From NCBI GenBank assembly GCA_025363295.1, contig JANYEC010000074.1, positions 1 through 64,000 of the forward strand: a stretch of DNA of 64,000 nt, in the 5' to 3' direction. A program made the translations under genes and the position numbers. The notes beneath the pieces were generated by a model. That model was not told where the DNA came from and did no database searches. It saw only the letters and a list, made by a program, of their open reading frames with translations. The stretch comes from Akkermansiaceae bacterium. GTDB lineage: Bacteria > Verrucomicrobiota > Verrucomicrobiia > Verrucomicrobiales > Akkermansiaceae. This document shows positions 6,510-40,762 of this stretch, one piece after another; position 1 is the stretch's first letter; the number at the start of each line of letters is the position of its first letter.

Positions 6510-8477
6510 TTAGAGGGTTGGAATTGGTTTTGAAGCCCAGTGATCGGTCCGAAAGGGAATCGTCGGCAAGTTGCTATCGTCCGTGAGATTCAGACCGTCT
6601 GGATCGTTCGTCCAAGCGTAGCGCACCGCTTCAGGTTGAGAGATCAAATCGCAGGAAAGCACCACTTCATTGCCTTGAACCAGGGCATCCGCGGGCATGA
6701 ATTTGTGGTCAGCCCCGGCAAGGGTGAACTGACGCGGAGCCGCGCCGTCTCGTGTTTTTAGAACTCCCGCGGTCAGGAATTTGAGGTGCCATTTTCCGCT
6801 GGCGTCTCTTCCCGCTGAATCCAGCGCCGGCCCGGAGCAAAGGACTTTTTGGCCATAGACTTTGTTCAAGGCAACGAGAGCCAGACGATCCCCGATGTCC
6901 CGCTTATTAGCGGGGTGCAGGTCATGGGAAGCTCCAATATCAATCCCGACGGAAAGAAGGGCGTTGGGAACGGTCTGGGAGACATTCCACTGAGCCTCGC
7001 GGAGCTCGGCCCACTTGGTGACCGCCCGTCCCTTGTCGTCGTAATTTGGGAGTTGCTGAATCAGGAACGGAAAATCGCCTTGTGCCCAGCGAGAGCGCCA
7101 ATCCCGGATGAGGAGGGGCAATAACTTTTGGTAGCCCTCGGCTCCCGAGACATTGCTTTCGCCCTGATACCAAACCACGCCGCGCATCGCGAAGGGAATG
7201 AGCGGATGGATCATTCCGCCGAACAGCGTCGTGACGCGACTGTTCTTGGGTAAAGCGGGACGTGTGCCCGCAGCGTCTCCGGCAAGCGGTAGAAACGTGC
7301 TTTCAATTCTCACGCTGCACAGACCATCGTCCGCACCGGATATTTTGGGAAGCATCAGACTACGGTTTCCCACGTGTGCCACAAAACGGACCGCGAGCAG
7401 ATTAGCACCCACAGTTACTTCCGATGAAGGGATGTTGAAAACGACAGGGCCCATCATGTAGGCCGGAGGAGTATGACCAAACTGCCCGACCTTTTTTCCG
7501 TTCCAATAAACCGTCAAGTATTGGTCCAGATTGGGTCCAAACTCCAGACGCAGGTTCTTTCCCGCACTCACGGCGGGGACCTGGATCTCTTCACGGACCC
7601 AAGCGACGCCGCCCGCGGGCAAGCCCAGTTCGGACAATTTCATACCGGCTTTGACGGGGCGCCACGGTGACTGCTCGCTCTGCGGATTCATCCAGCCCGC
7701 TTTTTCGCCTTCGTTGGAAGAATCGGTGCGGTTGTTGGCCTTTTCCCAAGCCGCCAGCGCATCCGGATAGGCGGCGATCCGACTTGGAAACTGCTCGGCG
7801 AAGGCAATCTCGCGTTCAGCCATCTCCTTGAATTCAGGAACCCCATCGAGCGACTCTTTGCTTGTCCAGTAATCGACCCCCGTCGCACCCACGGCGGAAA
7901 GAATAATTCCCACCGGCACCTTCATCTCAAGGTAAAGGTGGCGCGCAAAGTAGAATGCGGTAGCTCCGTAAATTTGCACCGTAGTCGGCGTGCAAACCGA
8001 CCAGTTCACCGGCGTGGTCGGCAACGGTTTGATGGATGCGGTTGTCGGCACGAGCCCCTGGCGGATGAGCGGGAAATTCGCGCTGTTTAAATCTTCTCCA
8101 TAAATCGGGCTTTTTCGCACCCCCGCCATTGTCATCGCCATGTTGGATTGGCCGGAGCAGAGCCACACCTCACCGACCAGGATGTCATCGATTTTGATTT
8201 CATTACTTCCTTTGACCACCAAAGCAGCCGGGTTGGCATTGGCGGGCATCGGATCCAATTGGAGCGTCCAGGCTCCGGCCGCATTGGCTACGGTTTCCTT
8301 CGTCTGACTCTGGAATGTCACCGCGATTTTTTCGCCGGGATCGGCTAGGCCCCACACAGGAACTTTCGCGTCTCGCTGCAAGACCATGTGATCGCCGAAC
8401 ACACCGTTGAGCTGCACGGCAGCGGGCGCCCATTGTTGGGCCAAAACTAACAAACCGAAAATAGGGCCGAATTTCAT
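6510..8477 (-). CDS. Secreted sialate O-acetylesterase-like protein (SASA/SGNH-type carbohydrate esterase)
   Basis: 655 aa; VFGDHMVLQRD, ILVGEVWLCSGQSNMAMTM, MRGVVWYQGESN, GASHDLHPANKRDIGDRLA. Confidence 0.9.
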   Translation of the reverse strand: MKFGPIFGLLVLAQQWAPAAVQLNGVFGDHMVLQRDAKVPVWGLADPGEKIAVTFQSQTKETVANAAGAWTLQLDPMPANANPAALVVKGSNEIKIDDILVGEVWLCSGQSNMAMTMAGVRKSPIYGEDLNSANFPLIRQGLVPTTASIKPLPTTPVNWSVCTPTTVQIYGATAFYFARHLYLEMKVPVGIILSAVGATGVDYWTSKESLDGVPEFKEMAEREIAFAEQFPSRIAAYPDALAAWEKANNRTDSSNEGEKAGWMNPQSEQSPWRPVKAGMKLSELGLPAGGVAWVREEIQVPAVSAGKNLRLEFGPNLDQYLTVYWNGKKVGQFGHTPPAYMMGPVVFNIPSSEVTVGANLLAVRFVAHVGNRSLMLPKISGADDGLCSVRIESTFLPLAGDAAGTRPALPKNSRVTTLFGGMIHPLIPFAMRGVVWYQGESNVSGAEGYQKLLPLLIRDWRSRWAQGDFPFLIQQLPNYDDKGRAVTKWAELREAQWNVSQTVPNALLSVGIDIGASHDLHPANKRDIGDRLALVALNKVYGQKVLCSGPALDSAGRDASGKWHLKFLTAGVLKTRDGAAPRQFTLAGADHKFMPADALVQGNEVVLSCDLISQPEAVRYAWTNDPDGLNLTDDSNLPTIPFRTDHWASKPIPTL

Positions 8478-8499
8478 TTTGTAGACTCAGTCGATTATC

Positions 8500-9999
8500 T
8501 TACAGAGCGTCAGCGGGAGACGTCTTGCTGTTTTTGTCTCCGCCGGGAGCCGGAAACACGGCGGCGCAATCCGCGTTGGCCGGTAGCAGGAGTTTGCCGG
8601 GCGTTCCATTCATGATCAGATCGAGAACCACCGGAGCGTCGCTCTGATTTTGCGCGAGGATCACCGTTTCTCCCCGTGCATTCCCAAACGCCGCGACCGG
8701 AGTGGAAAACTTAATGCCGTTGGCATTGTGAAACGCGGCGGTTACGCGCACGTCGCCCGGACGCACGAAACGGCTGGCGAGACATACCGGCTGAAAATCG
8801 GCGTTGTAGCGGATTTCGTGCGTGACGCGATCGATGGTAACCAAGGAGTTTTGCTTCCAGCCCCAGCCGCTCTTTTGTTGTTCGTCGAGGAGCATGTTCC
8901 AGTAAGCGTAGTTGTCGCAGCCGGCGTTGAAGTTACCGATCATCTCACCAAACCGATTGAGGGCTTGCTTCGCGGTGTTCTTGCCATCATCGCAACTGGC
9001 TTCGGTGTGCATGAAGCGCACACCGGGATAGTTCTTGGCCATGTCCTCGATGAGGTGGCCGTTGTAATATTGAATGCCTAGGCCCGATGCGGCGGCCCGG
9101 AAGGCGTCGTTTTTCATGCACTCCGTAGCCCAGGGGGCTTTCGGAGTTTCGCGGAAGGTGCCAGGCCAAATTTCGGTCGTGATTTTAGAGGCTTTGAAGC
9201 GGGGGGCGAGATGCCCGGTGACGAGTTTGATGGTTTGAGCGGGCTCCATCACGCAGCCGGGATAACCGGGATTGCAGTCCATCTCGTTTTGCGGGCAGAG
9301 GCGGGCGATCGGAATGCCGTGCTGGAGATAGCCAGTGAGGTATTTCTCAAAGTAGAGCGCGTAGGCGGCGTAGATGGGTTCCTCGTCGCGCAGCCGGTTG
9401 TTCTCGTGGTTCTTGCCGCCTCCGCCGTCCATTTTTCCGGAGAGCTTCATCCAACCTGGAGGACTCCAGGGTGAGGCGAAGAGCTGGAGACTGGGATTCA
9501 CCTGACGGGCGGCGACCACGGCGGGAATGATGGATTTCTCATCGCGCGCCAGGCTGAAATTTTTCATTTCATAATCATCCGGCACCTCGGAATAGGAGTA
9601 GGCGCTGGTCGCGAAATCGCTGGACCCGACGGGCAGCCGGCAGAAGGAAAGGCCCGCGCCTTCCTTGGCGTCGAAAAGCGCGTGGAGCAAAATCTGTTGC
9701 TGGTCCGCAGGCAGAGTAGCCCATGCGAGGGTGCCGATTTCGCTGAAGGCCGCGCCGATGCCGGTCATGTTCTGGTGGCGTTCGGCGGTGTTGATGTCGA
9801 TTCGCCCCACGCTGAGTTCTGCGGCGGTGAGGGGAGCTGTCAGCTCACGGATGGGCTTTTCTGGGACGGGGCTTTCGAGGTTATTGGATACATAGTATAT
9901 TCTCGCAGATGAGACTGCGCCAACTTGGGCTTGGACGGCTAAAGGCAGGGCAAACGTCGCGAGTGCGACCAAGCCGCTGGGGTAAAGAAATTTTATCAT
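8500..9999 (-). CDS. Secreted GH30-like glycosidase (glucosylceramidase / beta-xylosidase type)
   Basis: Start MIKFLYPSGLVALATFALPLAVQA at 9999; MTGIGAAFSEIG, FCRLPVGSSDFATSAYSYSE, LFASPWSPPGWMKLSGKMDGGG, LCPQNEMDCNPGYPGC. Confidence 0.87.
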   Translation of the reverse strand: MIKFLYPSGLVALATFALPLAVQAQVGAVSSARIYYVSNNLESPVPEKPIRELTAPLTAAELSVGRIDINTAERHQNMTGIGAAFSEIGTLAWATLPADQQQILLHALFDAKEGAGLSFCRLPVGSSDFATSAYSYSEVPDDYEMKNFSLARDEKSIIPAVVAARQVNPSLQLFASPWSPPGWMKLSGKMDGGGGKNHENNRLRDEEPIYAAYALYFEKYLTGYLQHGIPIARLCPQNEMDCNPGYPGCVMEPAQTIKLVTGHLAPRFKASKITTEIWPGTFRETPKAPWATECMKNDAFRAAASGLGIQYYNGHLIEDMAKNYPGVRFMHTEASCDDGKNTAKQALNRFGEMIGNFNAGCDNYAYWNMLLDEQQKSGWGWKQNSLVTIDRVTHEIRYNADFQPVCLASRFVRPGDVRVTAAFHNANGIKFSTPVAAFGNARGETVILAQNQSDAPVVLDLIMNGTPGKLLLPANADCAAVFPAPGGDKNSKTSPADAL

Positions 10000-36126: not shown

Positions 36127-36203
36127 GCGCTCGTAGCTCAGTTGGATAGAGCATCCGCCTTCTAAGCGGACGGTCACTGGTTCGAATCCAGTCGAGCGCG
36201 CCA
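36127..36203 (+). tRNA. tRNA-Arg (TCT)
   Basis: GCGCTCG...CGAGCGC acceptor, anticodon loop CTTCTAA (anticodon TCT), GTTCGAATC T-loop, encoded CCA. Confidence 0.95.
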
Positions 36204-36782: not shown

Positions 36783-36965
36783 TTATTTGCAACCGAGCAC
36801 CCATGCGAGCACACCTAGCAGAAAATTGATAGCCCCCGGCAGGAGCGAAACAATGGATAATTCATCCGTGTTTGGTACCAGCACGGATTCGAGGGCCACA
36901 ACCATTGCGCTGACGCTGATTGTAAGGAGAATGAAGCGGCGGAAGGTAAGCAGTAGCAATTTCAC
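36783..36965 (-). CDS. Small membrane protein (PgaD-like position)
   Basis: 60 aa, two hydrophobic segments; GTG start overlaps the glycosyltransferase stop (GTGA). Confidence 0.6.
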   Translation of the reverse strand: MKLLLLTFRRFILLTISVSAMVVALESVLVPNTDELSIVSLLPGAINFLLGVLAWVLGCK

Positions 36966-38305
36966 AGTAACGGAGGGGCGGCGGGGTGCTCTATCTCATC
37001 GAACCGAACCGTGCGCGACCACTTGCCACTATCAAAACGGAAGAAGCCCTCTGGGAAGCCCACAAGAAACGTGGTGAATGAGATGACGAGATAGTAGAGC
37101 GGATAGAGTGGTGCTAGTAACAACAGCAGCGGATACGATGACCACGAGCGCCGATCGATCGCGATTGCAATGCCAATCTGGATGTAAAACAGCGCACTAC
37201 AAATGCCGTAGAAATAAACCGTCCGGCTGAAAAACGCATCGTCGAACACAGGATCGCCGCGGAGAAAATCCTTCGACATATCGTATGCGGTGTAAGAGGT
37301 GAGAACCACACCTGCCAGAGCCCAGAGCACGGTTAGAAACGAAATGAAGATGACGGGAAAGTTGGTGGCTCTGCCAGAGACCCCTTTGCTGAGAAGATGT
37401 TCGCGCACGACGTGGCCGAAGCCGCTGCTCCATCGTTTGCGCTGATGCCACAAGCTTTTCCAAGTGGGAGCCATTTCCACCGAGGCGGTCCACGATGGTT
37501 CGTAATCGGCTCTCCAGCCAGCCAGTTGGAGCCGCCAACTCAGATCGATATCTTCCGCACTGGTAGCTTCATTGAAATTCTCCAGCTCGCTCAAGGCGCC
37601 TCTGCGGTAAGCCACCCATGCACCGGAGACCGTTAGAAGACAACCCCATTGGCTCTCAGCATTTTTCACCAGCCCGATCACCGCCAGGTAGTCAAGACAT
37701 TGGAAAAGATGGACAAAACGGGTCACCGCCATGGGCCAGATTTTACCGGTGATGGCGGCGAGTCTCGAATGCCTGTTAAACTGGGAAAGCATCCGGCTCC
37801 AATCGCGGCTAACAGCGATCGTATCGGCATCCATGCAAACGACGACCTCGGCGGAGGTATTGCTGAGCCCCACGTTCAGGGCGTGGGCCTTTCCCGCGTT
37901 CTTCTCGTAACGAATCAAGCGGGCATAAGGAATTTCGGCCACGGCCTGAAATTCGGACGACTGGGGTGCCTTCGGCGATCCGTCATCGATCAGAAGAATT
38001 TCCAATGGTGCCGGACGGATACCTGATAGACTGCGCGCCGTTTTCAGGGCTCCATCACATTCCCCGTAAAATGGAATCATGACCGAATAGCTGGGTAGCT
38101 CGGAGCACGGAGCGGGACGAACTAACCATTTCAAAAGGCTGACCAAAGCGAAGGTGCTCCAGAGCACGCTAATTAGGATGGGGAAAACCTCAATGTAATA
38201 GGTGATTTGATCGATGGTCCCTTCGGGCCAGTTTCTGATCTGATCGAAATGTTCCTGCCAACCCATCGCCATGGCTTGAAGCAGGTGGGTGAAAAAAGGC
38301 ATCAT
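36962..38305 (-). CDS. GT2-family membrane glycosyltransferase (PgaC-like)
   Basis: 447 aa; SVMIPFYGECDG, VCMDADTIAVSRDW, SAEDIDLSWRLQLAGW, HQRKRWSSGFG, multiple TM segments. Confidence 0.88.
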   Translation of the reverse strand: MMPFFTHLLQAMAMGWQEHFDQIRNWPEGTIDQITYYIEVFPILISVLWSTFALVSLLKWLVRPAPCSELPSYSVMIPFYGECDGALKTARSLSGIRPAPLEILLIDDGSPKAPQSSEFQAVAEIPYARLIRYEKNAGKAHALNVGLSNTSAEVVVCMDADTIAVSRDWSRMLSQFNRHSRLAAITGKIWPMAVTRFVHLFQCLDYLAVIGLVKNAESQWGCLLTVSGAWVAYRRGALSELENFNEATSAEDIDLSWRLQLAGWRADYEPSWTASVEMAPTWKSLWHQRKRWSSGFGHVVREHLLSKGVSGRATNFPVIFISFLTVLWALAGVVLTSYTAYDMSKDFLRGDPVFDDAFFSRTVYFYGICSALFYIQIGIAIAIDRRSWSSYPLLLLLAPLYPLYYLVISFTTFLVGFPEGFFRFDSGKWSRTVRFDEIEHPAAPPLL

Positions 38306-40762
38306 TTAGAGAGGAGGGGGATTGTATTTTTTAATCAAATCAGCGACCGCATTGCCTACCGCTGGATTCAACGGATAGGCCTTCTGGATCAGGCTCAGTC
38401 GGGCGCATGCTCCGGCCGGGTCGCCGTGCAGGAAATCCAGAGCGGCCACTGCGAGCTTCGCTTCGGTCCGGTTCTGGTTTTGCTTGGTAAGTCGGGAGAG
38501 AGTCGCATTGAGAAGTGGAATGCTGCGGGAGTCGATTCCTGCCTGAAGAAAGGCGAGCCACCAAGTTTGAGCCTCATCCGGCTGCGAAGGGAAAACCAGC
38601 GGGACGGACTCGTCCGCATGAAGCACTGGCAGACGCGGGATTCCCTGACGGCTGTTGCGGGCATTCGCGATGACAGGGGGTGTGTCAAATAGAAGGAAGT
38701 GGGTGAATCCTGCGCTTTCGGCGATCGCTCTGGAGGTCTGATTATATTCCCCGTACGGCCAGCAGAAAATACTGGAGGCCCGGAAGCCGTGGCTAGCAAG
38801 CAAACTGCGGCTAGTCTCCATGTCTATGCGGATGCGGCGCATATATTCCGAGTTGGTTTCGGGACGGCCAAATTCCTTGAGAAACTGCGTCGAAACCTCC
38901 GCTGGCAATGAATCTTCAGAAAAGATCGAGAGAGCCGTCTGATAGTGCATCGCATCCGAGTGCGACACCACTTCTAGCAGGCCAGTGTCATACATCTCGC
39001 GAACCTCTTTCCAGGTCATAGATTTATCGCTGCGATCCGGTTCAATGGTCGAGTGGTTGGATTGGTCCCCATCACTCAACCAACTGGTGACGAGCGCCGT
39101 GGTGAAAGGGATTTTCAGTTTTTTAGCACGAGGAAAAAACTGTTGATAGACACTTTCCGAACCGTCGTCGATGGTGATCACGAGGGGTTTGGACGGAAGC
39201 ATCGCAGTGTCGCGAGTGATCAGATAGGACTGAAACCGTGACATTGGAGCGACATTAAATCCGCTGACTTTGATAAATGCGAATAGATTGTCCAGATACT
39301 CAGTGCTGCATTTGTAGGGGAATCTATCACCGCTGGCTGCCCCTTCCTCCAAGGTATGCAGGGCGAGCACTGGCACCAACGGATCGTCTCCTTTGGCCTC
39401 GAGCGCTCCAGTTTTATAAAGTTCAGCAAGACATATCACCGACCAGATCGATGAGTCTTTCGGGAAAAGGTGAGGCCCCTCGCTGCGGTGAAGATTTGTC
39501 TGGGCAGCCGCATGAATCGCCCGGGTTTCGGTCGTGTCTGGGTTGGGTCTCACGTAGCCGAAGAGTTCCCTTGCTCTGTCGCTTTTGCGAAGAAGGTTTT
39601 CCAATCGATCGAAGCTCTTTTGTTCCCAAGTTCCAAAGGTGAACCACGACAATCCTGCGAGTGCTCCGTTTGGCACACTCGTAAGCGCACGTTCGGTTTC
39701 CGCAGGTGGTGCGTCGATGCCCAATGTGAGCCACTGTGAAGTCCCGTCCGTGAGTTCATCATGCTGGGAAAGCAGCTTGTTGCCCACCCACTCGGGCTCT
39801 TGCTTCCAATCCTGCCAGTATCCCATCGGCTCGAGGTAATCGAGACCGGCACGGCCCAACATGCCATAGTTCAGGCTGGTTTCCGTAAACTGCCATGGCT
39901 CCAGAAACGCCCCCCATCTCACCTCCGGGTGCGCCGCCCGCGTGCTGCGAACCAGATCCGCGACCCAATCGGCCAACAGTTGCGCCCTCATCTCATACCA
40001 GCGGGCTTTTGAATAGTCGTTGCCCAGGATATCCGGAAACCCTTTAAACTCGGGATATTTCTGCACGAATTTCACTCCTAACGGCCCATCTTTCCCTGCG
40101 GGCCACCCTTCATAACGGACCCAATCCAATGAAACTCCGTCAAACGGATAGCTCTCGAGCAGCTTGGAAATCAGCATCGACTGCCGCTCCCTCACGCCCG
40201 CCACAGCCGGGTCCACGAAAGTCTCACCGCGTTCGCTCTGGTATTTGGCCGCAGGAAACAGGTCCGCTGCCTGCACATCGTGAAAACACGGCCACCATGC
40301 CCATATTTTGATGTGGCGCAGTTTTGCCTGCACGAACATTTCGCGCAGCCATCCTGCGTCCTCCCAGCCGGGCGCACATTTCTCACCGGAAAGCGGAAGA
40401 AGAAGATCTCCCGATTGAAGGGTCGCCCCAGTGCGCTGGCTGTGAAAATTATCCTCATCCTGCTTCACCAGCAAATCAATCCGGTCGATCCCCAGGCGCT
40501 CACATTGGTTGAGGATCCAGACCCATCCGCCTTTCGTCACGTTTTCCGTGGTCCGCACAACGATGCCTTGCCCGATCCCGGCGCCCGGAATTTTAGAATC
40601 CATGGAAGGAGGCACTGCATCTGGCGGAGGCGTTTCAGTCGGAATGGCCCCGAGGGCATGCATGCCCGCCAAAAGCAAAACCGCCAGAATGGCAGGCAGA
40701 CATTCAAAATCAACGAAGGCTTTTCGCGTCAGGTGTTTCGGATGAGATGTGGGAAAGTTCAT
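38306..40762 (-). CDS. PgaB-like protein with N-terminal glycoside-hydrolase-like domain and C-terminal CE4 polysaccharide deacetylase domain
   Basis: 818 aa; N-terminal YPFDGVSLDWVRYEGW (GHL10/GH153-like), C-terminal KPLVITIDDGSESVYQQFFP, LLEVVSHSDAMH (HxxxxH), FCWPYGEYNQ; start lies next to the glycosyltransferase gene. Confidence 0.8.
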   Translation of the reverse strand: MNFPTSHPKHLTRKAFVDFECLPAILAVLLLAGMHALGAIPTETPPPDAVPPSMDSKIPGAGIGQGIVVRTTENVTKGGWVWILNQCERLGIDRIDLLVKQDEDNFHSQRTGATLQSGDLLLPLSGEKCAPGWEDAGWLREMFVQAKLRHIKIWAWWPCFHDVQAADLFPAAKYQSERGETFVDPAVAGVRERQSMLISKLLESYPFDGVSLDWVRYEGWPAGKDGPLGVKFVQKYPEFKGFPDILGNDYSKARWYEMRAQLLADWVADLVRSTRAAHPEVRWGAFLEPWQFTETSLNYGMLGRAGLDYLEPMGYWQDWKQEPEWVGNKLLSQHDELTDGTSQWLTLGIDAPPAETERALTSVPNGALAGLSWFTFGTWEQKSFDRLENLLRKSDRARELFGYVRPNPDTTETRAIHAAAQTNLHRSEGPHLFPKDSSIWSVICLAELYKTGALEAKGDDPLVPVLALHTLEEGAASGDRFPYKCSTEYLDNLFAFIKVSGFNVAPMSRFQSYLITRDTAMLPSKPLVITIDDGSESVYQQFFPRAKKLKIPFTTALVTSWLSDGDQSNHSTIEPDRSDKSMTWKEVREMYDTGLLEVVSHSDAMHYQTALSIFSEDSLPAEVSTQFLKEFGRPETNSEYMRRIRIDMETSRSLLASHGFRASSIFCWPYGEYNQTSRAIAESAGFTHFLLFDTPPVIANARNSRQGIPRLPVLHADESVPLVFPSQPDEAQTWWLAFLQAGIDSRSIPLLNATLSRLTKQNQNRTEAKLAVAALDFLHGDPAGACARLSLIQKAYPLNPAVGNAVADLIKKYNPPPL

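Follow-up and report, generated by a model that had tools for sequence, protein, structure and literature searches.

A GHL10-like barrel fused to a NodB2-type deacetylase next to a PgaC-like synthase in an Akkermansiaceae genome

Gene layout and domains of the fusion protein

The window analyzed here is a stretch of 64,000 nucleotides from the genome of an Akkermansiaceae bacterium. A first-pass annotation had placed an open reading frame at 38306-40762, and a gene is indeed present at exactly these coordinates, on the minus strand. It starts with ATG and encodes an 818-aa protein with a hydrolase-type barrel in its N-terminal and a CE4 deacetylase in its C-terminal half. The gene had also been described as abutting a PgaC-like GT2 gene, which is correct: the ATG of the GT2 gene follows the TAA stop of the fusion gene on the very next base (38305), with zero gap. 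The features are as follows.

38306..40762, minus: gene for the 818-aa fusion of a GHL10-like barrel and a NodB2-type CE4 domain (open reading frame, translation and family matches)
40643..40699, minus: hydrophobic segment, aa 22-40, a signal peptide or inner-membrane anchor (hydropathy and sequence)
39563..40579, minus: (beta/alpha)8 barrel, aa ~62-400 (AlphaFold2, Foldseek and conservation)
39374..39562, minus: linker, aa ~401-463 (low-confidence stretch between the domains in the AlphaFold2 model)
38624..39373, minus: CE4 deacetylase, aa ~464-713 (Pfam, NCBIfam and PDB matches, motif alignment, and the NodB2 topology rule of PMC10967932)
38324..38581, minus: alpha-helical tail of five helices, aa 728-813, TPR-like at most (AlphaFold2)
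36962..38305, minus: PgaC-like GT2 synthase, 447 aa, with four predicted TM segments (TIGR03937, alignment, tree and TM prediction)
36783..36965, minus: 60-aa open reading frame with a GTG start and two predicted TM segments, overlapping the GT2 stop codon

By inspection of the sequence, no lipobox Cys is found behind the hydrophobic segment. The helical tail matches Pfam TPR_19 with an E of 0.12. A tRNA-Arg(TCT) gene (36127-36203, plus strand) sits between coaD and the fusion/GT2 locus, and the coaD-tRNA-Arg linkage is present in four of eight sampled congeners. In the single-contig congener G104, coaD lies 356 kb from the helicase gene that forms the other flank, so the locus occupies a rearranged junction. 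A recent insertion was considered as well and rejected, since with these flanks so far apart in G104 no clean empty site was seen.

The assignment of the C-terminal half to the CE4 deacetylases holds. Polysacc_deac_1 of Pfam matches aa 523-687 (E 1e-15), and the NCBIfam PgaB model TIGR03938 matches aa 465-711 (E 1.3e-44) through its positions 5-248 only, which correspond to the deacetylase part. The score of 152.5 bits is below the curated cut-off of 321.9, with the PgaB of L140 at 677. The nearest PDB chains are BpsB (5bu6, E 4e-30) and E. coli PgaB (4f9d, E 3e-21), together with 4u10, which is PgaB according to PMC10967932. In an alignment of the fusion with eight PgaBs, H469, D532, D533, H601 and H606 align with H55, D114, D115, H184 and H189 of E. 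coli PgaB. The motif set is complete and runs in the order MT5 (H469), MT1 (D532/D533), MT2 (H601/H606) and MT3 (P669/Y670). Because MT5 precedes MT1, we assign this domain to the NodB2 topology, a circular permutation. According to PMC10967932, all CE4 PNAG deacetylases in its data set are NodB2, CE4 enzymes for chitin, peptidoglycan GlcNAc/MurNAc and xylan are NodB1, and one NodB2 enzyme has another substrate, namely GAC-decorated peptidoglycan. The intact motifs and the PNAG-associated topology strongly support that this half acts as a deacetylase, probably one that removes N-acetyl groups partially.

For the N-terminal half, which had been called GHL10/GH153-like, a glycosidase fold was found. 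The AlphaFold2 model, run with seven sequences, has eight strands alternating with helices (pLDDT mostly ~80-93), a TIM barrel of the glycoside hydrolase type, and in a Foldseek search of the PDB the GHL10 protein Cwp19 ranked first (E 3e-13), ahead of the C-terminal domain of PgaB (E 1e-11, TM 0.66 by target); another Foldseek run ranked the two alike. The Pfam GHL10 model (PF02638) matches below threshold, with 15.9 bits and an E of 0.007 at a gathering cut-off of 27.9 bits. A single hhalign comparison of the barrel with PgaB GH domains gave P 92% and E 5e-7, and a barrel profile built without the fusion itself picks up the GH region of PgaBs from the phylum, at best with E 1.8e-10 for that of L141. 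Since both results agree with the fold match, we regard the barrel as a GH153 homologue at the superfamily level. Membership of GH153 proper was rejected: the position of the catalytic Asp (D466 in E. coli; D474 in Bordetella GH153, PMC5933820; D196 in Cwp19, PMC5765458) is W214 in the fusion and Phe in all relatives from the GHL10-CE4 loci described below, and the barrel tree places the domain outside GH153. It is nearer to the GHL10 group and only a distant homologue of the PgaB GH153 domain, so of the original label the GHL10 side stands and the GH153 side does not beyond the superfamily.

Several residues, D102, D162, D213-x-x-R216, D318 and D350, are invariant between the barrel and these relatives. 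The DxxR motif reaches further, with D213 in 74 and R216 in 72 of 75 GHL10-like proteins and both in all GHL10-CE4 relatives. Model and conservation support the predicted fold and an acidic pocket. With the catalytic Asp replaced by W214 the barrel may serve for binding without cleavage, and that it cuts a polymer is uncertain.

The GT2 scores 191.7 bits against TIGR03937 (PgaC/IcaA), below the cut-off of 422.3, yet this is its best NCBIfam model. The motifs of processive GT2 enzymes are kept in the alignment as DADT, AEDIDLSW and QRKRW (DAD, ED and QxxRW). The 60-aa protein lies where PgaD would be expected and has zero matches to family models; by its position and TM segments it is possibly a PgaD-like partner. 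No PgaA homologue scored over threshold in the 94%-complete genome (best 21 bits, cut-off 367), which makes the route of polymer export uncertain. The PgaA TPR region binds the PgaB deacetylase domain and stimulates it (PMC9384988), and one might speculate that the five-helix tail directly after the deacetylase stands in for this scaffold.

Recurrent GHL10-CE4 loci and the distribution of the architecture

The barrel and the synthase of the fusion locus have relatives of their own. We scanned the genomes of 84,980 species with an alignment of the fusion and its first relative, using only two short peptide patterns, and obtained seven loci with a complete gene in six. In all six, which come from six genomes of five phyla, the barrel is followed by a CE4 domain and a PgaC-like GT2 lies directly downstream. 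They belong to Ectothiorhodospiraceae (L078), Anaerolineales (L079), Thermoleophilia (L080), Phycisphaerae (L083) and Verrucomicrobiota (L081 and L084). Four of the GT2s were scanned (L078, L079, L083 and L084), and for each PgaC/IcaA was the best NCBIfam model (254-300 bits). The L078 protein reaches 38.2 bits against Pfam GHL10. We found no description of such a GHL10-CE4-GT2 locus in the open-access literature.

The deacetylases of these relatives are of another kind. They are NodB1-like, match XrtA, PdaB and NodB models, and read DTEPD...HEQ...LDIHQW, with the MT5-like LDIHQW at the C-terminal end. BLAST of the fusion CE4 against theirs gave one chance alignment of 27 aa (E 6.7), compared with E 4e-33 against PgaB. 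A Cys-rich stretch (e.g. SCACxxC) after the DFIRYDDD motif is conserved in the relatives (L078, L079, L083); it also occurs in many GHL10-like proteins, is possibly metal-binding, and is absent from the fusion. In the Verrucomicrobiia relative L076, the same locus as L081 (positions 6833-8052 and 7617-9077), the GT2 appears as two open reading frames in different frames, possibly by a frameshift. The open reading frame directly downstream, which overlaps it, has a match to OprB, a family of carbohydrate porins (E 3e-8), and is a candidate for the exporter in the outer membrane.

In the barrel tree the fusion groups with the GHL10-CE4 relatives (97/92) and GH153 forms a separate clade (100/100). 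In the GT2 tree the neighbor of the fusion falls outside the PgaC clade, on the side of the GHL10-CE4 loci (100/99). The branches of the fusion barrel and of its GT2 are very long, with 2.9 and 3.8 changes per column, and because their placement may be distorted we consider the tree support for a hybrid good and not final.

The first-pass annotation had noted that the domain order is opposite to that of canonical PgaB, and this was confirmed within the phylum. A search with the CE4 half among 388 Verrucomicrobiota genomes matched eight other genomes. Five of these hold PgaBs (L138-L142) that match E. coli PgaB nearly end to end in canonical order, and one match (L143) is broken off by a contig end. 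The remaining two (L144, L145) are shorter CE4-first NodB2 proteins (475-547 aa) whose genes immediately precede that of a PgaC-like GT, and their GH153 part seems lost or shortened. A complete canonical pgaABCD set is present in L077, which belongs to the same order as the source genome. As to whether the reversed order occurs elsewhere in Verrucomicrobiota, it does in L081 and L084, both with NodB1-type CE4, and was not seen with NodB2: a hydrolase-first protein with NodB2 CE4 was found in none of 190 genomes of the order, 384 of the class and 388 of the phylum, nor in any of eight sampled congeners. Plasmids yielded only canonical PgaB CE4 or other CE4 matches. The scan of 84,980 species gave no further such combination, although with its two short patterns absence is not proven. 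GHL10-like barrels with a DGxxxD[YF]IR[YF] motif occur in 143 of the 388 Verrucomicrobiota genomes at E 1e-8, many in proteins of 600-900 aa; those that we fetched (L108-L136 and others) match neither of the two CE4 profiles used.

Function and origin of the fusion

We favor, with a probability of about 0.6, the reading that the fusion is a hybrid enzyme that works in the periplasm and modifies the product of a small synthase-dependent exopolysaccharide locus, most likely a polymer of the PNAG type (beta-1,6-GlcNAc). Judged by homology, the GT2, perhaps together with the 60-aa two-TM protein, would polymerize and extrude a poly-GlcNAc chain. The secreted fusion would meet this chain in the periplasm, where its C-terminal CE4 domain would strip part of the N-acetyl groups and its N-terminal GHL10-clade barrel would bind the chain and may cut it. 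That the polymer is of the PNAG type we infer.

A different polymer is the strongest competitor, though an unlikely one. The NodB2 domain might have been recruited with a changed specificity, and the fusion might then act on something other than PNAG, as the NodB1 relatives may do. This would fit the grouping of barrel and GT2 with the GHL10-CE4 loci instead of PNAG operons, the scores below the NCBIfam PgaC and PgaB cut-offs and the failure to find PgaA. However, the characterized CE4 PNAG deacetylases are all NodB2 (PMC10967932), the motif set of the fusion is complete, and PgaC/IcaA is still the best model for the GT2.

Less probable again is a canonical PgaB whose GH153 domain moved from the C- to the N-terminus with function and substrate kept. 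The PgaB-type CE4, the adjoining PgaC-like GT2, the second-best fold match and the remote profile homology are all compatible with it. The profiles themselves argue against it: a GH153 profile gives the fusion barrel only 2.8 bits and L078 37.5, while the profile of the GHL10-CE4 relatives gives the fusion 97.7, the best GHL10-like protein 81.5 and PgaBs 13-34. The separation of GH153 in the barrel tree and the loss of the catalytic D466 point the same way, and a plain shuffle of PgaB domains is strongly disfavored by profile cross-scores and tree. Hence the hydrolase and deacetylase domains, which had been called swapped, are reversed in order, but most likely not by rearrangement of a PgaB, since barrel and GT2 sit with the GHL10-CE4 + GT2 loci.

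That two unrelated genes were joined in metagenome assembly, or that the gene is degenerate, is very improbable even though the combination is a singleton that no sampled congener carries, since the frame is single and unbroken within a 113-kb contig, the order GH-CE4-GT2 is repeated in six independent genomes and the GC content of the two halves (barrel 0.57, CE4 0.54) is like that of the neighbors. The gene and its domain layout are real, far beyond chance, and no artefact.

As to the origin of the hybrid, the simplest reading would be that the NodB1 CE4 of a GHL10-CE4 + GT2 locus was exchanged for one of the NodB2 type. Alternatively, the reverse direction might apply and NodB2 would be ancestral in these loci. 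More tentatively, and with the odds somewhat against it, GHL10-CE4 with a PgaC-like GT2 might form a class of its own among the synthase-dependent exopolysaccharide systems, so far undescribed and present in at least five phyla, able to switch between NodB1 and NodB2 deacetylases, i.e. to change its chemistry or to converge on that of PNAG by domain replacement.

Relation to known exopolysaccharide systems

Exopolysaccharide deacetylases that carry a GH-type barrel and are encoded beside their synthase are already known, and the locus is a variation and not a new kind of system. Its interest lies in the hybrid make-up and the recurrent GHL10-CE4 + GT2 locus behind it. The deacetylate-then-cleave model of PgaB assumes a fixed two-domain layout; the fusion, a natural enzyme that shares the deacetylase class but has the order reversed, another barrel and no PgaA, could serve to test what barrel and order contribute. 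The recurrent locus suggests that there is an exopolysaccharide system which goes unseen by the curated PgaB and PgaC models, so biofilm capacity may be under-called in Verrucomicrobiota, Planctomycetota, Chloroflexota and Actinomycetota.

Deviant PgaB architectures are already known: PMC7112194 describes divergent Gram-negative pgaB clades that lack GH153 and PgaA/PgaD and have N-terminal fusions, mainly of GT domains. We found no hydrolase-first PgaB described there or elsewhere in the open-access literature, so the order does not appear to be catalogued as a common PgaB architecture. Cwp19 of C. difficile (GHL10) is the best solved-structure match to the barrel, but it is a cell-wall autolysin with CWB2 domains and without a deacetylase or synthase partner. 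Streptomyces MatB, which makes PNAG, likewise combines GT2 and CE4 outside the pgaABCD scheme (PMC5972031), but in a single polypeptide whose CE4 is nearest to PgdA/NodB and in which no barrel is recognized. PelA of P. aeruginosa is a dual-function periplasmic modifier that also has its hydrolase N-terminal and its deacetylase C-terminal (PMC12022489), whereas its GH and CE families are others (CE21) and its polymer is alpha-1,4-GalNAc.

With PgaB (E. coli, or Bordetella BpsB) the fusion shares a NodB2 CE4 with identical catalytic motifs, a distantly homologous TIM barrel and an adjacent PgaC-like synthase. It differs in the opposite domain order, the GHL10-clade barrel without the GH153 catalytic Asp and the helical tail; moreover, PgaB is an outer-membrane lipoprotein, whereas the fusion has no lipobox, comes from a genome in which PgaA was not found and scores about half the PgaB cut-off. 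The GHL10-CE4 + GT2 loci, in contrast, have NodB1 CE4 domains, no helical tail and a Cys-rich loop kept after the DFIR motif, but with them the fusion has in common the barrel-first order, a barrel of the same family (domain identity 21-28%), a GT2 directly downstream and a similar N-terminal membrane segment.
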